This document shows positions 2,489-16,836 of a stretch of 30,084 bases of DNA, piece by piece. The stretch comes from a virus. The stretch's first letter is position 1, and the number at the start of each line of letters is the position of its first letter. The DNA lies in IMG/VR virus record IMGVR_UViG_3300020051_000587, positions 1 through 30,084 of that record; one strand, given 5' to 3'. The translations under genes and the position numbers were made by a program. The notes under the pieces are model-generated. The model ran no database searches. It was not told the origin of the DNA and was given only the letters and a program-made list of their open reading frames with translations.

Positions 2489-2747
2489 GAAATGGGAAGT
2501 AGTACAGGGACGTAAGTCCGAGAAAGATAAGATACTTTTGTATCAAGGTCAAGCAGTTGCATTTCGTGATGTTGCAATGATGTGTATCTTCTTTATGGAA
2601 AATGAAGACAATTTGTATCCGCCCTCTCATGGGTTGAAGGGAGCAGAGATGTTTAAGGACTATATAAAAGAAGTATTAGAGACAAGATGTGTACCTACAG
2701 ATAGTAAGTACGCTATCAAAAAGAATCACGGTGTGGTGAAAGTATGA
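2481..2747 (+). CDS. Hypothetical protein, 88 residues
   Basis: Not recognised. The ATG at 2481 overlaps the end of the primase-like gene by 8 bases, so the two are probably translationally coupled; earlier in-frame starts lie deep inside that gene and are unlikely. The protein is lysine-rich at its start (MVKKWEVVQGRKSEKDK), then has a central helical part with FRDVAMMCIFFMENED, and no signal peptide. Its stop overlaps the start of the epimerase gene. Position suggests a small accessory of the replication block, but nothing in the sequence shows its role. Confidence 0.7.
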   Translation: MVKKWEVVQGRKSEKDKILLYQGQAVAFRDVAMMCIFFMENEDNLYPPSHGLKGAEMFKDYIKEVLETRCVPTDSKYAIKKNHGVVKV

Positions 2748-3682
2748 GAATTTTAATTACAGGTGCGGCTGGTTTTATCGGTAGTCACCTTGCAGATACA
2801 CTATTGGATGATGGGTTTGATGTTGTTGGATTGGACAACTTTAATGATTTCTATGACCCTTTATTGAAACATGATAGAGTACAGTATTTTGGTCACCAAG
2901 TTTTTAACTGCGACCTAAAAGACTTTGATGCTCTTGACGAAGCATTCAATAAACTGCGACCTGACATCGTTATGCATTTAGCTGCACGTGCAAATGTGCG
3001 TGACTCTTTTGGTAAGGAAGTAATTTATCACAAAGATAATATTGATGCTACTCAGAATCTTATTGAAGTATGTAAGATGTATGATGTCGCTAAGGTTGTA
3101 TATGCATCAACCAGTTCTGTATATGGTGGTACACCAATTCCAGCAACAGGTTGGGTAGAAGACGAAGTCACAGGACACCAGTTGAATGCATATGCATACT
3201 CAAAGTATGTCAATGAATGTCAGTTTAAAATATCTGGTCTAAACAATGTAGGTCTACGTTTCTTTACCGTATATGGGCCTTGGGGTAGACCTGACATGGC
3301 ACTGTTTGATTTTACTAAGAATATTGTTGCGGGTAACCCTATCGAGGCATTTAACTATGGTAAGATGAAGCGTGACTTTACCTATATCGGTGATATCATT
3401 GAGGGTATTAAGATTGCAATGTTTACTAATACTAATCCGAACGAAATTTATAATATCGGTAGAGGTAGACAAGTTGAATTGATGCATTTTATTAAGTGCA
3501 TAAGTAAAGAACTAGGAAGAGAGGCAGACGTGGTTCTCGCTCCTCGACATCCCGCTGATACACTAGAAACATTTAGTAACACAGCAAAAATAAGAGAACT
3601 TGGATATAAACCCAAAGTAAACATTGAGGTGGGTGTTGACGCATTCGTTCGATGGTACAAAGAATATTACGGAGTAAATTAA
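2744..3682 (+). CDS. NAD-dependent epimerase/dehydratase (UDP-glucuronate epimerase-like)
   Basis: An extended short-chain dehydrogenase/reductase of 312 residues. The Rossmann motif TGAAGFIG (residues 6-13) binds NAD. The active site is the STSSVYGG serine region followed by the Y150-x-x-x-K154 pair (YAYSKYVNE). Length and the LDNFNDFYDPLLK start resemble UDP-glucuronate 4-epimerases, which convert UDP-glucuronate to UDP-galacturonate. The next gene encodes a UDP-glucose 6-dehydrogenase-like enzyme, whose product would be UDP-glucuronate, so the pair could form a two-step route from UDP-glucose to UDP-galacturonate. The exact substrate is inferred. The gene starts with an ATGA overlap with the gene before it. 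Confidence 0.88.
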   Translation: MRILITGAAGFIGSHLADTLLDDGFDVVGLDNFNDFYDPLLKHDRVQYFGHQVFNCDLKDFDALDEAFNKLRPDIVMHLAARANVRDSFGKEVIYHKDNIDATQNLIEVCKMYDVAKVVYASTSSVYGGTPIPATGWVEDEVTGHQLNAYAYSKYVNECQFKISGLNNVGLRFFTVYGPWGRPDMALFDFTKNIVAGNPIEAFNYGKMKRDFTYIGDIIEGIKIAMFTNTNPNEIYNIGRGRQVELMHFIKCISKELGREADVVLAPRHPADTLETFSNTAKIRELGYKPKVNIEVGVDAFVRWYKEYYGVN

Positions 3683-4668
3683 TGAGTGAAGCAGAATGGG
3701 TAGATGGTGGTGATGGATATGAATATCCAAAGGGTTCGAGAAATGTTGACCCCAATGGAATTCCACAGGAAGTTGCCCTTAAATTAAAGATTGGTATTGT
3801 TGGACATGGATTTGTTGGTGGTGCGGTGGACTACGCATTTACCCATCCAGAAATTGAGAAGTTTTATGTTGACCCGAAATATGGGACAACTATTGATGAC
3901 CTAGTTGATTGGCAACCTCATGTATCATTTATTTGTGCCCCAACACCAATGGCAGAAAGTGGATTTGTTGATGCATCAATTGTAGAAGATGCCGCTCTGA
4001 AACTATTGGAACATACCGAAGGTGGTGTTGTTGTCAAATCAACAATTACTCCAGACATTGTTGACCGTTTATATTCGTCCGTATTTGAGGATGACATCAA
4101 ACGACTAACTATCAACCCTGAGTTCTTGACTGAGTCAAATGCGAAGGAACAGTTTGTTAATGCTAAGTATCACGTAATCGGTGGCCACCCTGACGCATGT
4201 CAAGGTCTTGCACAGTTATATGATGTGTATAGTTTATGTACCGCATCCGAGTATCTCTTTACGTCTGGCCCTGAGGCTGCGTTTGTGAAGTATGGTGTGA
4301 ACTCATTCCTTGCAACTAAGGTAACGTTCTTCAACCAACTCTATGATGCGATTCAGAAGTTTGGTTGTAACTTCCCCACGGTTGCTAATGCGATTGGTAA
4401 GGATGAGAGAATTGGTATCGGTCATACACGTGTGCCTGGTTATGATGGTAAACGTGGTTATGGTGGTGCCTGTTTTCCCAAGGATACAAAAGCATTCACT
4501 TTGTTTGATACTGACTTGACTTTAATTGAAAAGTGTGTTACTATAAACAACAATTACAGAAATAAATATGAACTAGACGAACGTGAGGAGTCAAATAATG
4601 TCAAGTATGATGGACAAGCTGAAGAAAAACAGCAAGATAAAAACAACGGAAGTACTGTCGGAGAGTAA
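3682..4668 (+). CDS. UDP-glucose/GDP-mannose 6-dehydrogenase family protein
   Basis: A 328-residue nucleotide-sugar dehydrogenase; the family oxidises UDP-glucose to UDP-glucuronate with NAD. The NAD site IGIVGHGFVGGAV appears after a roughly 35-residue extension. The NPEFLTES motif and the catalytic-cysteine motif GYGGACFPKDT (Cys264) are intact. It is shorter than bacterial Ugd (about 390-450), the carboxyl UDP-binding domain being largely absent, as in some phage homologues. The start is the ATG at 3682, which overlaps the epimerase stop (TAATG). The last 25 or so residues are low-complexity, rich in N, E, K and Q, and are read across the uvsX ribosome-binding site and start, giving a 71-base overlap; they may be a recent read-through extension. 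Confidence 0.87.
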   Translation: MSEAEWVDGGDGYEYPKGSRNVDPNGIPQEVALKLKIGIVGHGFVGGAVDYAFTHPEIEKFYVDPKYGTTIDDLVDWQPHVSFICAPTPMAESGFVDASIVEDAALKLLEHTEGGVVVKSTITPDIVDRLYSSVFEDDIKRLTINPEFLTESNAKEQFVNAKYHVIGGHPDACQGLAQLYDVYSLCTASEYLFTSGPEAAFVKYGVNSFLATKVTFFNQLYDAIQKFGCNFPTVANAIGKDERIGIGHTRVPGYDGKRGYGGACFPKDTKAFTLFDTDLTLIEKCVTINNNYRNKYELDEREESNNVKYDGQAEEKQQDKNNGSTVGE

Positions 4669-8311: not shown

Positions 8312-8978
8312 GATTGTAATCCGAAACAAACATCTACTAGAGATGCTTGATAAGACTGTTGATATGTTTCTTGAACATAGAGAACTGTGTGAAGAGTTAT
8401 CGGATAGTTTACAACGTGACATTCCAGTACAGGAGTGGGAGAGATTCTGCCAAGAGGATTATCTGCATGAGATGATTGCGAAGGGAGATGACCACAAAGG
8501 GTTTCCTGAAAAGGGTTATGGGTTTCAAGTATCACATGGGGTCAAACACAGGCCCGATGTGTTTGAACCATTAATGAAATGGACTAAGACCGAACTCCCA
8601 ATGCAGTTTGGTGCAAGGTCAAACTCTCTCACATCCTACTATCCACCCAATGGATTTGTGGGATGGCATACCAATTGGAATGCCCATGGGTATCAAATCA
8701 TTCTCACGTGGAGTGAAGATGGTGATGGGTATTTTTCTTATTATGATAGAAAGTCTGATACGATTATCACCGAACCAGATGTTAAAGGATGGCAGGCAAG
8801 ATGGTACAGGTTTGGTCGTAAAGATGAACCCCAACATCATTGTTGGCATACTGCATGGACAAACTGTCCACGATTCACCCTTGCGTTTAAGTTTCCTTAC
8901 CACATAGGTGGTGACGTATACGAAGATGCAGCCCTTGATGCGATAAATGATTTTGTAGAAGAGTTAGAAACTGCTTGA
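8304..8978 (+). CDS. 2OG-Fe(II) oxygenase-like protein
   Basis: A 224-residue protein resembling the double-stranded beta-helix oxygenases that use Fe(II) and 2-oxoglutarate. The core order is YYPPNGFVGWHTN, then a strand-rich part (IILTWSEDGDGYFSYYD), then HHCWHTAWTNCPRFTLAF, giving the proximal histidine, the distal histidine and a following arginine that would bind 2-oxoglutarate. The usual H-x-D/E metal pair reads H-T-N here, so the carboxylate ligand is absent at the expected place. It could be a divergent oxygenase or an inactive fold. It is coupled to thyX by an 8-base overlap; a DNA/RNA base or protein target cannot be told from the sequence. Confidence 0.65.
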   Translation: MTEIVIRNKHLLEMLDKTVDMFLEHRELCEELSDSLQRDIPVQEWERFCQEDYLHEMIAKGDDHKGFPEKGYGFQVSHGVKHRPDVFEPLMKWTKTELPMQFGARSNSLTSYYPPNGFVGWHTNWNAHGYQIILTWSEDGDGYFSYYDRKSDTIITEPDVKGWQARWYRFGRKDEPQHHCWHTAWTNCPRFTLAFKFPYHIGGDVYEDAALDAINDFVEELETA

Positions 8979-9009: not shown

Positions 9010-9546
9010 ATGATTATGAAAAGACTAGTGATAGGAATCGCTGTGCTCAGTATATTGGGTTCAGTATCAGGCGCAACAGAAAATAACGTTGAAATCCCGT
9101 TTATCTATTCAGATAAAGCCGTTCAATGTCTTGCACTCAACATCTATCATGAAGCACGGAACGAATCCTTTGCAGGACGAGTTGCGGTTGCTGATGTGAC
9201 AGTAAATCGCATGTATGATAGTAGATATCCGAATACGATATGTGGTGTTGTACATCAAGCGAAACTGAGTAAATGGCATCTTGAACAAGGACGTGAAGTA
9301 CCACTGAGACATATGTGTCAGTTCAGTTGGTATTGTGATGGAAAGTCTGACCAACCCAATGATGGAGACAGTTGGTTAAAGTCGAAAAGATTAGCACAAA
9401 ACTTCTTGACTTATGGGGAATTTCGTGGTATAACAGAAGGTGCAACACACTATCATGCAACCTATGTCAAACCTGATTGGGTTAATGACCGTGGTATGAG
9501 TATGGTGGGTAGTATCGGTGAACATATATTTTATAGGTGGAACTAA
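9010..9546 (+). CDS. Secreted SleB-type cell-wall hydrolase
   Basis: A 178-residue protein of the Hydrolase_2 (SleB) family, which cleaves peptidoglycan glycan strands. The family opening CLALNIYHEARNES is clear, with the likely catalytic glutamate E48, followed by AVADVTVNRM, the CQFSWYCDG cysteine segment and GATHYHATYVKPDW. A signal peptide (IMKRLVIGIAVLSILGSVSGA) should send it through Sec, so it could act as an exported endolysin without needing a holin, or as a periplasmic wall-loosening enzyme. Two starts are possible, ATG at 9010 or 9016; both lie at the predicted transcription start, so the message would be leaderless or nearly so. It has its own promoter. Confidence 0.88.
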   Translation: MIMKRLVIGIAVLSILGSVSGATENNVEIPFIYSDKAVQCLALNIYHEARNESFAGRVAVADVTVNRMYDSRYPNTICGVVHQAKLSKWHLEQGREVPLRHMCQFSWYCDGKSDQPNDGDSWLKSKRLAQNFLTYGEFRGITEGATHYHATYVKPDWVNDRGMSMVGSIGEHIFYRWN

Positions 9547-11010: not shown

Positions 11011-11196
11011 ATGAAAAAGACAAAAAGAATAAAATCCCGTCACGGGAATCTGTTGTTTGACAACAATAGTCCTTTTAAACAAAAGGTAGTACTCGATAAA
11101 ACGAAGTACAACCGCAAAAAGAATCCCCGCAAAGTCGGGGATTTTTCTTATTGGTCTTTATTAAATTCTCTAAAGGGTCTAACCTTTCCATCATAG
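11011..11196 (+). CDS. Small basic protein whose stop lies beyond a terminator
   Basis: Sixty-one residues. The basic first part (MKKTKRIKSRHGNLLFDNNS, then PFKQKVVLDKTKYNRKK) looks like short basic proteins seen in marine T4-like phages; no function is known to me. A strong intrinsic terminator (11116-11146) lies inside the frame at codons 36-46, and the stop codon is 48 bases further on, antisense to the end of the converging gene. Transcripts stopped there would have no stop codon. The last 17 residues may therefore be rarely or never made. Confidence 0.55.
   Translation: MKKTKRIKSRHGNLLFDNNSPFKQKVVLDKTKYNRKKNPRKVGDFSYWSLLNSLKGLTFPS
11116..11146. terminator. Bidirectional intrinsic terminator
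   Basis: Stem AATCCCCG (11122-11129) pairing with CGGGGATT (11136-11143), loop CAAAGT, with an A-run before and a T-run after, so it works as a terminator on either strand. It separates the plus-strand bS21 unit from the converging minus-strand gene. Confidence 0.9.
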
Positions 11197-11486: not shown

Positions 11487-11494
11487 TATAAATA
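11487..11494 (+). promoter_or_regulatory. T4-type late promoter motif driving the curli-like operon
   Basis: An exact TATAAATA (followed by CCTAC). In T4 the motif covers -13 to -6, which puts +1 at 11500, the A of the first ATG of the operon, so the message would be leaderless. No sigma70 -35/-10 pair of similar quality is seen in the gap. Confidence 0.6.
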
Positions 11495-11499
11495 CCTAC

Positions 11500-11781
11500 A
11501 TGGAAAATGCATTTACTCTAATCAATGAATTGGGGTTTCCTATAGCCGCTGCACTGATTGGCGGTTTCTTTATGTTTCTGACTCTCAAGTATATAATGGA
11601 CGGTGTTATTGGTCAGGTGAAATCTATTCGTGGAATAGTGGGAAGCCTTGATAACCGTGTAAAAACTATGAATCATGATATGGTTCGTATGGACACAACT
11701 ATGTGTGTTGTTCTGGGAATAAGACCAGACCTAACCCGCATCAGTAGAGCTAATGGTAAAGAAGATGCGAGACGAGACTAA
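11500..11781 (+). CDS. Small membrane protein with coiled-coil tail (A)
   Basis: Ninety-three residues, first gene of the curli-like operon. Residues 8-33 (INELGFPIAAALIGGFFMFLTLKY) hold one membrane helix beginning with a GFPI turn, followed by an amphipathic, heptad-like segment (VKSIRGIVGSLDNRVKTM). The next gene encodes a protein of the same plan, with the same GFPI start, so the two look like an old tandem duplication. Holin-like size and shape are compatible but not diagnostic; they might also be inner-membrane partners of the CsgG pore. The ATG coincides with the predicted late start. Confidence 0.72.
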   Translation: MENAFTLINELGFPIAAALIGGFFMFLTLKYIMDGVIGQVKSIRGIVGSLDNRVKTMNHDMVRMDTTMCVVLGIRPDLTRISRANGKEDARRD

Positions 11782-12032
11782 TGATAGAATTTATAGACAG
11801 TATAAAGTCTTTCGGGTTTCCGATAGTATCAGCGGTGGGTATGCTGTATATGATTTACTTCGTGTGGAAAACAATCACCGAAGAAGTCGAGAAGAACTTA
11901 GATGATACACAAAAGACCTTAATTGGTTTGATTGACAGAATAAGAATGTTAGATAATGATATCATCCGATTGCAACAGAAACTAGATACTGCAATCGAAT
12001 TAAAGAGAAAACAAGATGAAGAAAATAACTAA
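11781..12032 (+). CDS. Small membrane protein with coiled-coil tail (B)
   Basis: Eighty-three residues. The ATG overlaps the stop of the gene before (TAATG). Layout repeats that of its neighbour: a membrane helix opened by GFPI (FGFPIVSAVGMLYMIYFVW), then a longer coiled coil (LIGLIDRIRMLDNDIIRLQQ). It probably sits in the inner membrane with the helix near the amino end. The gene overlaps csgF by 17 bases, so it is part of the same unit; function unknown. Confidence 0.72.
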   Translation: MIEFIDSIKSFGFPIVSAVGMLYMIYFVWKTITEEVEKNLDDTQKTLIGLIDRIRMLDNDIIRLQQKLDTAIELKRKQDEENN

Positions 12033-12504
12033 GTTTACCGTGATTGAAAAAATAGAATCGATTATATTATTGGTTTGTTTTGGACTTATGTTTTTTGTGT
12101 TTGCCGAAGTTTCGGCTGCACCGATTGAACATAAGTTTAAATCGCCGTCATTCAGTGGAGTGAACACTAGTTCTCATTATTTAACAATTGAGAACCAAGA
12201 AGCATCTCGTAAACAAGCCATAAAACAAGAGATAAAGGAATTACAGGAACAATTGGAAAGGGATGCTGAGAATACCACCCTTGCAAAATTTATTAGAAAT
12301 GTGGAAAGTAGAATTTATTCTACCCTATCACGACAGATTGTAGACAGTATGTTCGGCGAGAATCCTAGTGATACGGGTTCATTTAACATTGAAGGTACAG
12401 GAATATCATACGTCAGAAATGGCGATAGTGTGGAGTTAACAATTACAGATGAGAATGGTAATACGACTGTTATCGTTATTCCTCTTGGGGACTTTGGTAT
12501 CTAG
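12016..12504 (+). CDS. csgF: CsgF-like curli assembly factor
   Basis: In curli (type VIII secretion) systems CsgF is exported and its first residues plug into the CsgG pore from the cell surface, widening the constriction and tethering the nucleator. Here, a signal peptide ends in FAEVSA/APIEH, and the mature start HKFKSPSFSGVNTSSHYL follows the CsgF pattern F-x-N/S-P-x-F-x-G. Then come a helix (TTLAKFIRNVESRIYSTLSRQIVDSMF) and a beta end GDSVELTITDENGNTTVIVI that matches the CsgF tail. An extra charged helix of about 30 residues is present between the plug and the neck. The gene overlaps csgG by 56 bases. Confidence 0.88.
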   Translation: MKKITKFTVIEKIESIILLVCFGLMFFVFAEVSAAPIEHKFKSPSFSGVNTSSHYLTIENQEASRKQAIKQEIKELQEQLERDAENTTLAKFIRNVESRIYSTLSRQIVDSMFGENPSDTGSFNIEGTGISYVRNGDSVELTITDENGNTTVIVIPLGDFGI

Positions 12505-13264
12505 TTGTACTTCTCTCGGTAGTGGAAACTTTGAGATACCACAGAGAGATGAACCAAGAATACAGGAAACATTACTCCAACAAGAACTGAAGAATGTTTC
12601 TAGTCCGAAGAGGAAACCGACAGTAGCTGTGTATCAGTTTACTGACCAGACGGGACAGAAAAGACAAAATAGTGGTGGTGGAACTTCGTTTAGTTCTGCG
12701 GTAACACAAGCACCTTCGGTGTACCTAATACGTGCATTGAAACGTGCAGCGAACGGAAATTTCTTTCGTGTTGTAGACCGTCAAATTATTGACCATGTCA
12801 CTAGAGAAAGACAACTGATACGTCAAACTCGTCAAAGTTACGAGGGAGATGAATCTCAGAAATTACCAGCATTAACGTTCGCTGGGATGATAATTGCAGG
12901 AGGTATAGTAGGATACGATACTTCGATTGACACAGGTGGCGCTGGTGCTAGATACCTCGGTATTGGAGCGTCCCGTGAATTTAGTATTGATACTGTGACC
13001 GTAAATATACGGTTAGTGTCAGTTGCAACAGGCGAAGTCTTGCTTGATGTAATAACAAGTAAGACCATACTATCCACGGCTTTTGGTGGGGATGTATTTA
13101 AATTTATAGAGCAGGGCACCCAACTGGTTGAGATTGAATCAGGGGTGACTCAAAATGAAAGTGTTTCCATAGCGACCCAACGTGCTATAGAAACGGGAGT
13201 CCTTGCGCTCATTAATCGTGGAAACGACATGGGGTACTGGACATTTAACGGAGAAAATAAATGA
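12449..13264 (+). CDS. csgG: CsgG-like outer-membrane secretion pore lipoprotein
   Basis: CsgG forms the nonameric outer-membrane channel for curlin export. The 271-residue protein begins with a lipoprotein signal ending LVSSC (C20). The core follows CsgG closely: VAVYQFTDQTGQK, FSSAVTQAPSVYLIRALK, FFRVVDRQ, GYDTSIDTGGAGARYLGIG (the best-conserved CsgG block), VNIRLVSVATGEVL, TSKTILS, and AIETGVLALINRG near the end. The constriction loop after DQTGQ is two residues longer than in E. coli and is glycine-rich (NSGGGTSF); the phenylalanine of the eyelet appears kept, while the tyrosine and asparagine do not. The start overlaps csgF; no strong ribosome site, so coupled translation is likely. Confidence 0.95.
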   Translation: MRMVIRLLSLFLLGTLVSSCTSLGSGNFEIPQRDEPRIQETLLQQELKNVSSPKRKPTVAVYQFTDQTGQKRQNSGGGTSFSSAVTQAPSVYLIRALKRAANGNFFRVVDRQIIDHVTRERQLIRQTRQSYEGDESQKLPALTFAGMIIAGGIVGYDTSIDTGGAGARYLGIGASREFSIDTVTVNIRLVSVATGEVLLDVITSKTILSTAFGGDVFKFIEQGTQLVEIESGVTQNESVSIATQRAIETGVLALINRGNDMGYWTFNGENK

Positions 13265-13983
13265 ACGTTAGGCATTTAAGTTTTGCTATGATGTTCGTAA
13301 TCGGTTTTGCGTATGCAGACAATGAAATATATATTGACCAAGTAGGAGATGGGTCTTCGATTGACATCGTACAGGATGGTTCGGGGAACGTGATTGGTGG
13401 TTCTGCTTCAGACACCACTAAGATGTTACTTTCGGGTAGCAACATGGATTTCAATGTCAACATGACTGGTTCGGGTAATACACTGATAGGTGATATTATT
13501 GGTTCTGGAACTATCGTTGACCTTGATATCAATGGTTCGAGTAATGACCTGTTATTTGATATTGATAAAGGAAATGTGTATGGAGCTACCAATGGCGATT
13601 ACTTCATTAATATCACTGGTGGTAATAACGCTTTAGACTTTGATATTGGTTCGATTGATACTGCCAACGACTTAGACTTTGACTTTGTCTTGGATGGTGA
13701 TTTTAACACTGGAGACATTAATATTGATGCGTCAGGTTTGACATTCAATATGGATGTTGTAGGTGATAACAGTAACTTACTTTACAATGCTAGTGGTTAT
13801 GATGGACACAACTTTGTGTTGAGAGGCATTGGTAGCTATTGGAATATAGAAGTAAATCAAGAATCAACTTTACAGTCTGATTCGTTGGAGATAGATTATG
13901 ATGGTGACGGAACAAGTGCGACAGCGAATACTATTTGTATTAGTCAGTCTGATTCTGGTCTTAACTCCAACTGCGGTAACTAG
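13261..13983 (+). CDS. Secreted curlin-like beta-repeat protein (candidate substrate)
   Basis: A 240-residue exported protein starting with a signal peptide cut near AYA/DNE. The mature start carries two curlin-like strands, IYIDQVGDG and IDIVQDGSGN, which fit the I-x-I-x-Q-x-G-x-x-N pattern of CsgA/CsgB repeats. Further on the repeats drift to short alternating strands closed by G/S-N/D turns (VNMTGSGNTL, INITGGNNAL, MDVVGDNSNLL). It is very rich in Asp, Asn, Gly and Ser and nearly free of Lys and Arg, as expected of a beta-solenoid or amyloid. Two cysteines end the chain (CISQSDSGLNSNC). It starts with an ATGA overlap on csgG, which makes it the obvious candidate cargo. Not certain to be amyloid. 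Confidence 0.78.
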   Translation: MNVRHLSFAMMFVIGFAYADNEIYIDQVGDGSSIDIVQDGSGNVIGGSASDTTKMLLSGSNMDFNVNMTGSGNTLIGDIIGSGTIVDLDINGSSNDLLFDIDKGNVYGATNGDYFINITGGNNALDFDIGSIDTANDLDFDFVLDGDFNTGDINIDASGLTFNMDVVGDNSNLLYNASGYDGHNFVLRGIGSYWNIEVNQESTLQSDSLEIDYDGDGTSATANTICISQSDSGLNSNCGN

Positions 13984-15019
13984 TGCTGACGTAGGCGCAG
14001 TAGATAAAGCGGTTGGTTGGAGACAGATTGTTCGTGATTTGAACAAGATTGAACCAAGGGCTGGTTCGGATATAGCACCCAAGGACGACCTTCGCACAGG
14101 TGAGGGACGGATGCAAGTGTCTTTTGTTGACGATAGTAAACTTCGTATGACAGAACATACTCGCATAGTTATAGACAACGTAGTATTTGATGAAGACCCA
14201 AGTAAGTCTGATTTGGCAATGACCTTTGCTCAAGGTACGGCTAGATTTATATCTGGTCAACTGGGTAAGGTTGATAAAGAGAATATCAGACTCAAGACCC
14301 CGACCGCATCTATCGGTATCCGTGGAACAGATTTCACGGTTACGGTAGATGAGTTTGGGAAAACTTTGGTTGTACTTTTGCCTGACGTAAACGGTATCTC
14401 CTCGGGCGAGATTATCGTTTCAACAATGACAGGTGAAGTAGTACTCAACAAACCATTTCAATCTACCACAACAACCGTTGCCGAAGTGGCCCCAAGTGAA
14501 CCAGCAATCCTAGATTTGACTCTGGATATGTTGAACAACATTATGATTATCAACCCACCTAAAAAGAAAGAGACTCAAGAAGAGTTCATGGCAAATGTCA
14601 GTGCGACCAAGAATATCAACCCTCTTGACGTAGACTTTTTAGACCAAGACTTGTTAACCGAAGAAGAACTAGAGAGGGACTATCTAGAATTCAATGAACT
14701 AGATATCAACTACTTAGATGTTGACCTACTCGAAGACTTATTGGATAGTTTCGATTCATTGGGTGAAGATGTGTTGAAAGAACAAGAGTCTACAGGTGAA
14801 TTATCTCTCAGTGGCACCGAAGAAGGATTTGATACGGTTACTCAGGTTGCAACCATTGTAGATGGTGACAAGGTTACTTTTTCTAGAAACGTCAGTGACA
14901 TTGCAGAGGTTTCGGTAGATAAGACATCATCAACTTTAATAACAATAGAACAAGACGGAAAATCACTAGACCCCATTAAATTAAACGGCCAAGATACTCA
15001 GATAAATATAGTACAATGA
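13898..15019 (+). CDS. Secreted FecR-domain protein
   Basis: A 373-residue exported protein. The ATG at 13898 has GGAG 7 bases upstream; the signal peptide is ILFVLVSLILVLTPTAVTS. A FecR domain covers about residues 45-150: IAPKDDLRTGEGRMQVSF, DDSKLRMTEHTRIVID, TAFSQG-like FAQGTARFI, then the hallmark TPTASIGIRGTDFTV. The middle is acidic and Leu/Asp-rich. The last 30 residues carry curlin-like strands ITIEQDG (from residue 348) and a final INIVQ. FecR domains in the periplasm usually relay signals to membrane partners, and genes for FecR proteins are often found beside CHASE2 cyclases in bacteria, as here. It overlaps the repeat-protein gene by 86 bases and the cyclase by 4. Confidence 0.9.
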   Translation: MMVTEQVRQRILFVLVSLILVLTPTAVTSADVGAVDKAVGWRQIVRDLNKIEPRAGSDIAPKDDLRTGEGRMQVSFVDDSKLRMTEHTRIVIDNVVFDEDPSKSDLAMTFAQGTARFISGQLGKVDKENIRLKTPTASIGIRGTDFTVTVDEFGKTLVVLLPDVNGISSGEIIVSTMTGEVVLNKPFQSTTTTVAEVAPSEPAILDLTLDMLNNIMIINPPKKKETQEEFMANVSATKNINPLDVDFLDQDLLTEEELERDYLEFNELDINYLDVDLLEDLLDSFDSLGEDVLKEQESTGELSLSGTEEGFDTVTQVATIVDGDKVTFSRNVSDIAEVSVDKTSSTLITIEQDGKSLDPIKLNGQDTQINIVQ

Positions 15020-16836
15020 AGACATGGCACGTTCTTATCACACTGGGGTTGATGGTAGGATTACGATTTCTTGACCCCTTCCTATTAGAGAGTGCTAGAC
15101 TCTCTTTCTTTGATTCCCTTCAAAGAAACCAAGAAACATCTATCTCAGAACAGATTGTACTGGTAGATATTGACGAAAAGACTTTAGATAAGTTTGGTCA
15201 ATATCCAATTCCCCGTAAGGTCATGGCAGATGAGATTGATAAGATTGATGGTAGTATTATTGCATTCAATATCTTGTTCTCAGAAGAAGACAGAATGGGA
15301 GGCGATGAATACTTTGCAGACATTCTATCTTGGAAACAATCGGTGGTTGCTATTGCACCATCCAATAGAACCAACACAGACTACCGACCACCCCGTATCG
15401 GAACTGCAACCTTTGGTGACCGAGATGCCGAAGACTTCAGACCCGAACTGCCAGGCATGTTATTTGCACAACCAATCATACATGAGAATGTATTTGGTTA
15501 CGGAACGATATCATCTACACAGGATGTTGATGGTATCACAAGAAGACAACCTCTATTGGAAAACTTTGATGGAAGACTCTATCCCGCATTTGGATTAGAT
15601 GTTCTCAGGGTTGCCGCAGGAGACTCATCTTATCAGATATCCACGGATGAATACGGAATCAAGTTTGTTCGTGTACCACAGTTTAAAAATATCATAACTG
15701 ATACTAGTGGTAATATCACTATCGCATACTGGAATGAATTTAAGAGATACTCGTTCACGGAACTAGACACTATACCAAAAGGCAGTATAATCGTGATTGG
15801 AGCGAACTTTGAGGGTTCTAGTATAGTTGCGACACCCGTGGGGTCAATGTATCCTCATGACATTCAAGCGAACATAATCAAGACTATGATTGATGGTGTC
15901 GTTTTAAAGCGACAGGACGAATTTATTTTCTATGAGGTCTTGACAAGTATCATACTTTCTGTTATACTATTAGCTTTTATAACCTATGCACCAATAAGTG
16001 TATCTGGTATGACGTTTGGTGTCATACTAGGTGGATTATATTACTTTGCCAACGATACCTTCTCAACCTACTATTATATGGTTGACCCTATATTCCCTAT
16101 ATTAACGTTAGTAATAATATTTGCACATGGTTCCTTTGTACAGTTCTACACACAGTTTAAAGCTAAACAGATGATTAAGGGTCAGTTCGGAACTTACCTA
16201 TCACCCGACATGGTAGACATGTTGGCAAAAGACCCAAGTCTCATGAAGTTAGGTGGTGAGAAGAAAGAGATGACGTTTCTGTTCATGGACATATGTGGAT
16301 TCACCCCCATATCAGAACATTACAAAAACAAGGACGATGCGGAAGGATTGGTCACACTTATTAATAACTATCTTAATGAGATGACGAAAATTATCCTAAA
16401 TAACGGTGGTACAATCGACAAGTATATGGGCGATTGTATTATGGCATTTTGGAATGCACCTTTACCCTGTAAAAATCACGCAGAGATGGCAGTTAGGTCT
16501 GCAATAGAAATTGAAGAGAAAACGAATGAACTCCGAAGACAATATAGTGAACAGGGTCTACCCCCCATCAATGTTGGAACTGGTATCAATACAGGTACTT
16601 GCATTGTTGGTAATATGGGTAGTGAGTCACGGTTTGATTATTCAGTCATCGGAGACGCAGTCAACCTTGCAGCAAGACTCGAAGCAACCGCAGCTCGAGG
16701 AGACTACCTTGAATACAAGACCATCTACTCTAGTTTCACAATGGAAAAACTCACCACTATTAATTCGAGACCAATAGGTCAGATTAAAGTGAAGGGTAAG
16801 GAGGAAATGATTGATATCTTTACAATGGACAGATAA
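15016..16836 (+). CDS. CHASE2-domain class III nucleotide cyclase (probably adenylate cyclase)
   Basis: A 606-residue membrane enzyme expected to make cAMP from ATP. One amino-terminal helix (residues 5-20) leads into a periplasmic CHASE2 sensor domain (about 30-300; FFDSLQR, VLVDIDEKTL, PIPR segments). Three membrane helices follow (about 305-385), then a cytosolic catalytic domain (415-606). Metal-binding aspartates are D425 (FMDICGFT) and D473 (DKYMGDC); the transition-state pair is N550 and R554 (GDAVNLAARLE). The base-selecting positions are K469 and S543; a Lys with Thr/Ser is usual for bacterial adenylate cyclases. All catalytic residues are present, so it looks active. It is last in the operon, joined by ATGA to the FecR gene. 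Such an enzyme is very unusual in a phage. Confidence 0.94.
   Translation: MKTWHVLITLGLMVGLRFLDPFLLESARLSFFDSLQRNQETSISEQIVLVDIDEKTLDKFGQYPIPRKVMADEIDKIDGSIIAFNILFSEEDRMGGDEYFADILSWKQSVVAIAPSNRTNTDYRPPRIGTATFGDRDAEDFRPELPGMLFAQPIIHENVFGYGTISSTQDVDGITRRQPLLENFDGRLYPAFGLDVLRVAAGDSSYQISTDEYGIKFVRVPQFKNIITDTSGNITIAYWNEFKRYSFTELDTIPKGSIIVIGANFEGSSIVATPVGSMYPHDIQANIIKTMIDGVVLKRQDEFIFYEVLTSIILSVILLAFITYAPISVSGMTFGVILGGLYYFANDTFSTYYYMVDPIFPILTLVIIFAHGSFVQFYTQFKAKQMIKGQFGTYLSPDMVDMLAKDPSLMKLGGEKKEMTFLFMDICGFTPISEHYKNKDDAEGLVTLINNYLNEMTKIILNNGGTIDKYMGDCIMAFWNAPLPCKNHAEMAVRSAIEIEEKTNELRRQYSEQGLPPINVGTGINTGTCIVGNMGSESRFDYSVIGDAVNLAARLEATAARGDYLEYKTIYSSFTMEKLTTINSRPIGQIKVKGKEEMIDIFTMDR

Follow-up and report, generated by a model that had tools for sequence, protein, structure and literature searches.

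Gene Content and Late Promoter of the Operon

The window analyzed here, the whole stretch of 30,084 nucleotides, is a 30-kb fragment of the virus record IMGVR_UViG_3300020051_000587 with a GC content of ~41%. At positions 11500–16836 it carries seven open reading frames on the plus strand, which overlap by 1, 17, 56, 4, 86, and 4 bases; our re-check reproduced the gene number, strand, and overlap sizes of the first-pass annotation exactly. Two small membrane proteins head the operon, TM1 (11500–11781, 93 aa) and its paralogue TM2 (11781–12032, 83 aa), both assigned to phrog_18771; TM1 has one N-terminal hydrophobic segment followed by a charged helix. Downstream follow CsgF (12016–12504; PF10614, E = 6e-18), CsgG (12449–13264; PF03783, E = 8e-48), a secreted curlin-like repeat protein, Cur1 (13261–13983), a secreted FecR-domain protein (13898–15019; PF04773, E = 1e-11), and a membrane CHASE2-class III nucleotide cyclase (15016–16836; CHASE2, E = 1e-36; Guanylate_cyc, E = 9e-20). 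CsgF, CsgG, FecR, CHASE2, and the cyclase domain all score well over the Pfam cut-offs, in agreement with the identities first assigned. Known PHROG families cover all operon genes but the curlin-like one. The whole set is under purifying selection, with dN/dS mostly of 0.06–0.17 and at most 0.235. The Rfam scan of the window returned no match.

The remainder of the window carries T4-like genes for replication and metabolism. The DNA polymerase encoded there most resembles that of phage C48C1 (70% identity); a search for CsgG in this relative gave no match. Relatives with the same operon reside in records of up to 139–149 kb that encode a T4 gp23-type capsid protein. A phage endolysin or cell-wall hydrolase (9010–9546, plus strand; phrog_938; PF07486, E = 9e-23), is encoded 2 kb upstream of the operon. 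Between the two, at 11119–11146, a bidirectional terminator-like hairpin (11 pairs on the plus and 8 on the minus strand, a pattern match only) may part the operon from the genes upstream.

The operon is preceded by a T4-type late promoter element, TATAAATA (11487–11494, plus strand), which starts 13 nt ahead of the first ATG. By T4 convention, a transcript from such an element would begin at or near the ATG. The element occurs five times in the window, every copy on the plus strand. Among relatives, [TC]ATAAATA lies within 100 bp ahead of 80 of the 122 non-podovirus TM1 genes, compared with a background of 0.01 per 100 bp, and the commonest spacing is exactly −13 (28 hits). The internal operon genes almost never carry the element, except for CsgF and the cyclase in sub-groups. 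These patterns point to a late-expressed, T4-like late transcription unit. The annotated picture of a phage operon with a curli-type pore, a secreted curlin-like protein, FecR, an active-looking CHASE2 cyclase, and late expression was upheld.

Export Pore and Putative Diverged Curlins

CsgG carries a lipoprotein signal, with Cys20 following LVSS, and is predicted to form an outer-membrane export pore, with CsgF as its extracellular cap. Cur1 as a single protein scores 15.7 bits against the curlin family PF07012, under the cut-off of 20.7. Its AlphaFold model is a regular strand stack with an 11-residue period (mean pLDDT 85.4, pTM 0.81), and its profile matches that of Cur2, a second curlin-like protein of related loci, with E = 1e-30. 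A Foldseek search of the PDB gave no specific match: all that it retrieved were generic solenoids, each with E above 0.001. We regard Cur1 and Cur2 as putative diverged curlin-repeat proteins. The initial claim that csgA, csgB, csgE, csgC, and csgD homologues of standard form are all absent accordingly needs splitting: Cur1 and Cur2 would take the place of csgA/B as diverged curlins, whereas the Pfam scan of the operon proteins indeed detected no CsgE, CsgC, or CsgD. Compared with the bacterial curli system (csgBAC-csgDEFG), the operon has in common the CsgG pore, the CsgF cap, and the putative curlin repeats, but it adds FecR, the cyclase, and the TM pair.

Distribution among Phages and Earlier Reports

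Using tblastn, we matched both CsgG and the cyclase in the cultured phages HTVC008M and Melnitz, where the genes are arranged as TM1-TM2-csgF-csgG-curlin-FecR-curlin-cyclase. The order is the same as in the window operon, with one or two small genes ahead, whereas the phage of the window, at ~41% GC, is without the second curlin gene. PMC9599517 describes a pelagiphage type VIII secretion (T8SS) module comprising CsgF, CsgG, CsgA/B, FecR, and an adenylate cyclase in myoviruses and podoviruses, preceded by a "histidine kinase" gene, sometimes two; it likewise reports CsgE, CsgC, and CsgD as absent, and derives an alphaproteobacterial origin of the module from trees. The first-pass annotation placed csgF/csgG in pelagimyophages, though not together with FecR and a cyclase; this does not hold, and the cultured phages and PMC9599517 rule out that the full module is new to phages. 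The window operon is a further instance of the published T8SS-FecR-adenylate cyclase module, with matching gene order. The csgGF part is also treated in PMC7029224 and PMC9004378, in which sibling capture and lysis timing were proposed. The main text of PMC9599517, as searched, makes no mention of holins, the FecR tail, the lysis-cassette setting, or the type I variant described below. What is new here relative to the open PMC literature, for a module already published, is the curlin-type tail of FecR, the paralogous TM pair with its lysis-gene setting in podovirus-like relatives, the recurrent late promoter, and the FecR-cadherin/RTX neighbours of the related bacterial cyclases together with the type I variant.

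The gene order is repeated across ~100 viral loci. Among loci fetched with the cyclase and CsgG of the window, most sufficiently long contigs have TM1-TM2-CsgF-CsgG-Cur1-FecR-(Cur2)-Cyc. This recurrence excludes an assembly chimera, which had been named beforehand as refuting the reading. Scanning for the TM pair recovered the same module again or a version in inverted, convergent orientation relative to the pair. In INPHARED, the pair occurred solely in the six records of curli phages; beyond these there were two marginal matches (E = 0.5). Two apparent exceptions were dropped. The cyclase had seemed to be missing from L134–L138, which was wrong for most of them, since of the four records searched, three encode a CHASE2 protein at another place; and L345, taken for a curli-free counter-example, has CsgG 14 kb away on its contig.

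The Cyclase and Its Bacterial Relatives

All the residues of a class III adenylate cyclase are found in the window protein: the metal-binding Asp425 and Asp473, the base-contacting Lys469, and the transition-state residues Asn550 and Arg554. The nearest solved relative is the class IIIb adenylate cyclase CyaB (3r5g, E = 9e-39), with which the catalytic domain, the metal Asp pair, and the Lys, Asn, and Arg are shared; the window cyclase differs in its CHASE2 input and at the second base-selecting position, where Ser543 replaces Thr. It is probably a IIIb-like adenylate cyclase, as Lys469 and Ser543 would, by analogy with CyaB, favor ATP. Asp425, Lys469, Asp473, and Arg554 are invariant in 134 phage homologues, which excludes that the cyclase is a pseudogene in the relatives; position 550 is Asn in 120 of them and Ser in the other 14. 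These 14, Melnitz included, have Asp at the second base position and Ser at the Asn position, which marks an alternative type of catalytic domain. Any effect of cAMP would be exerted via a host or other receptor, because none of nine phage records encodes a cyclic-nucleotide-binding protein.

The nearest bacterial cyclases (~33% identity) come from Bradyrhizobium and other, mostly alphaproteobacterial, genomes, and many of them directly adjoin large FecR proteins. Four such proteins were scanned: one has cadherin and laminin-G domains (with weak RTX), two have RTX repeats, and one has FecR alone. A surface repeat protein with a FecR domain beside a CHASE2 cyclase is the arrangement of the phage module as well, but the bacterial repeats are cadherin, LamG, or RTX and CsgG is not beside these cyclases; CsgG is absent from 14 of the 16 genomes in which close cyclases occur. 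In the Burkholderia BiofilmReg operon (PMC5192318), which is linked to biofilms, a periplasmic FecR-domain protein adjoins a CHASE2 sensor, but its output is a histidine kinase and a response regulator with no cyclase. Conversely, the five true alphaproteobacterial curli loci among 385 genomes have no FecR, cyclase, or TM genes within ~10 kb. A bacterial ancestor with the complete module was not found in the 385 alphaproteobacterial genomes or the 16 genomes with close cyclases.

A variant with a partial type I system in place of the curli pore was encountered at L337/L416. There, the TM pair and a CHASE2 cyclase are convergently arranged; next after the cyclase come HlyD, a membrane protein that matched nothing in Pfam, an outer-membrane efflux protein, and a FecR-cadherin protein of 1299 aa, and no CsgG occurs over 148 kb. 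HlyD is also present on two shorter contigs, L325 and L332. The L337/L416 record encodes a phage-type clamp loader; of the capsid and terminase families tested, neither was found. Its assignment to IMG/VR, the clamp loader, and the TM pair suggest a phage-like record. Because this FecR-cadherin variant keeps the cyclase and the TM pair, a FecR domain on a surface polymer together with a CHASE2 cyclase appears to be the constant pairing.

A Curlin-type Tail on the FecR Protein

In the AlphaFold model, the FecR protein consists of a beta domain (residues ~33–192), a disordered or helical linker, and a C-terminal beta domain (~302–373; block pLDDT 79–88). Foldseek relates the protein to FecR-type domains of PupR and anti-sigma proteins (E ~5e-5). 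The C-terminal strands (14846–15016, plus strand) resemble those of curlins and end in ...INIVQ. Across FecR families ~29–82% identical to that of the window, Gln373 is the sole invariant residue in the last 40, and [IVL]x[IVL]xQ stands within the last few residues of 133 of the 141 phage FecR proteins, as opposed to 3 of 1457 other viral proteins. The same ending is found in 62 of 72 Cur2 and 28 of 135 Cur1 proteins, and several curlins of alphaproteobacterial curli loci share it (e.g., VTVTQN and ITITQH). None of 38 FecR proteins near the bacterial relatives of the cyclase has it, even with a looser pattern.

The curlin-type ending of 133 of the 141 phage FecR proteins (background 3/1457) makes it probable that FecR docks on the fibre via this tail. 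The comparison suggests common descent of the tail and the curlin repeats, and no more than suggests it, because the HHalign match between the two ends is weak (probability 49%); the statistically strong part is the terminal motif alone. Alternatively, the ending could be a convergent export or capping signal.

The tail also bears on the proposal, put forward in PMC7029224 and PMC9599517, that larger molecules enter through CsgG for nutrient uptake, with FecR and the cyclase reporting the iron or nutrient state. The name FecR does derive from iron-citrate signalling. A curlin-type tail on the phage FecR is not what this proposal leads one to expect, nor are the adhesin-like FecR partners of the related bacterial cyclases in place of FecA/FecI systems, or the late expression, and we consider a nutrient-uptake pore very improbable.

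The TM Pair and the Lysis Neighbourhood

Judged by position, TM1 and TM2 apparently correspond to the gene labelled "histidine kinase" in PMC9599517. Their number agrees with "sometimes two", and a kinase pair regulating the module would follow from that label. Proteins of 93 and 83 aa with a single hydrophobic segment and a charged helix, paralogous to each other, without a HisKA or HATPase domain in Pfam even at E ≤ 1, and occurring with lysis genes, make a kinase function barely credible. TM1 is holin-like in shape, and TM2 matches the holin family phrog_4898 weakly (E = 0.0016), such that holin homology of the pair, which is linked to these modules, is at best faint.

In the podovirus-like L350 and L351, the order is holin-like gene-TM1-TM2-module-Rz/Rz1 spanins-endolysin, and in L300 and L306 it is endolysin-spanins-holin-TM1-TM2-module. 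L287 has holin-like gene-TM1-TM2-spanins-endolysin-terminase-portal without curli genes, and its lysis and TM proteins are 58–75% identical to those of L351. The "holin-like gene" denotes a small membrane protein of phrog_10198, a family with no assigned function, whose role we infer from its position; it lies directly upstream of 24 of 165 distinct TM2 genes. In window-like relatives, a cell-wall hydrolase is encoded 2.3–4.9 kb upstream on the same strand, and in Melnitz 8.1 kb upstream; in T4-like phages overall, the hydrolase nearest to the operon is 2–8 kb off and non-adjacent. Lysis timing was argued in PMC9004378 from other synteny, together with a pinholin idea; TM1/TM2 and the nesting of the module among lysis genes add further evidence for a lysis link.

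Such a link could be taken further, to a device for lysis control in which TM1/TM2 act as a holin/antiholin-type pair, CsgG, as an open or a gated pore, depolarizes or permeabilizes the envelope, as in the pinholin idea of PMC9004378, and the curlin-like proteins serve as plugs and not as fibres. The module directly following a holin-like gene beside the spanins and endolysin, the curli-free arrangement of L287, and the late promoter would all fit. However, CsgG is an outer-membrane lipoprotein pore and no inner-membrane holin, the holin-like genes exist separately, a version with FecR-cadherin and a type I system exists, and the strong conservation of the curlin-repeat proteins, the FecR tail, and the cyclase would be left unexplained. 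We regard lysis control as the main function as unlikely.

Possible Function of the Module

Whether the operon is a late surface-fibre export module, linked to lysis, whose cyclase monitors a FecR-tagged fibre is in our judgment an evenly balanced question. CsgG and CsgF would assemble in the outer membrane of the host as a type VIII pore through which Cur1, and Cur2 where it occurs, are exported. FecR would cross the inner membrane and attach by its curlin-type C-terminal strand to the fibre as it grows, or to the fibre base, which might keep the FecR domain close to the CHASE2 domain that the cyclase exposes to the periplasm; cAMP production in infected cells would then be switched by fibre export or assembly. 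The holin-like TM1/TM2 at the head of the operon might connect the module with lysis. The likeliest benefit would be a curli coat on the dying cell and its debris, by which host cells are held or recruited or the infected cell is shielded from other phages. Fibre docking, FecR-CHASE2 contact, the direction of signalling, and the benefit are our extrapolations, and the coupling of envelope state to cAMP, as first annotated, keeps that status, now in a sharper form through the FecR C-terminus. No clumping was observed in cultures with phage Melnitz (PMC9004378), which tells against the fibre-module reading, as do the weak profile match of the FecR tail, the lack of a cAMP receptor in the nine phage records, the failure to detect CsgE and CsgC among the operon proteins, the weak holin homology of TM1/TM2, and the distance of 2–8 kb to the hydrolase.

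The module might accordingly serve to display fibre at lysis, to exclude competitors, or to control lysis. Were exclusion, or conversion of the envelope, the primary purpose, the late pore and fibre would mask receptors and block competing phages, with cAMP as a side signal. The products are directed to the surface, the module is found in dense marine phage communities, and the same hypothesis appears in PMC9599517; a late rather than early promoter leaves little time for protection, however, and the cyclase goes unexplained, making this account rather improbable.

A broader form of the fibre-module reading, which we advance tentatively and with some doubt, is that phages have adopted a bacterial theme, an exported surface polymer bearing a FecR domain and watched by a CHASE2 cyclase, as a late "fibre plus sensor" cassette with exchangeable parts and a holin-like pair at its core. 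Most phages would export curli via the type VIII pore, and others FecR-cadherin via a type I system. FecR would be the physical link by means of a curlin C-terminal strand that it has borrowed, and cAMP would report fibre export and tune lysis.

The module is common in ocean phages, SAR11 phages included. The FecR tail and the lysis setting give testable mechanisms, namely signalling from a fibre-docked FecR to the phage cyclase and fibre display at lysis, and the tail may help explain why FecR and CHASE2 genes are paired in bacteria. If the fibre-module reading is true, phages would alter the surface and the second-messenger state of cells that rank among the most abundant on Earth shortly before lysis.

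Variation of the module among related viral loci

The two small paralogous membrane proteins at the head of the window operon, TM1 and TM2, occupy other positions in some of the relatives. TM1 sits between csgF and csgG in L066 and L082, away from the operon head, and in L133 the pair lies 3' of the cyclase on the opposite strand (8650-8949), still adjoining the module. On one phage-like contig (L337 8245-16209 and L416 379-6034), the TM1-TM2 pair is adjoined by a CHASE2 cyclase, HlyD, an outer-membrane efflux protein and a FecR-cadherin protein; HlyD and the efflux protein constitute a partial type I system. GroEL, DnaK and 2OG-oxygenase-like genes are likewise encoded there. Another phage contig with the pair and a CHASE2 cyclase encodes a SoxY-SoxZ fusion protein (L345 11923-12642).

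In a Foldseek comparison, the model of the window FecR protein (13898-15019) weakly matched 5ix9, entitled 'cell surface anchoring domain' (E=0.022, 61 columns, target TM-score 0.71). CsgG is also encoded by OR851715, a short 'Salmonella phage' record (1499 bp) in the phages collection, which is possibly host DNA rather than phage. Within the replication block of the window, genes between primase and UvsX (2744-4668) carry the PHROGs labels nucleotide-sugar epimerase and UDP-glucose dehydrogenase, both of which look doubtful.

A second type of catalytic domain, with Asp at the second base position and Ser at the Asn position (Ser543 and N550 in the window protein), was found in L003 (12619-14670) and 13 further cyclases. 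This suggests that the catalytic domain was swapped behind a conserved CHASE2 domain in these 14 proteins.
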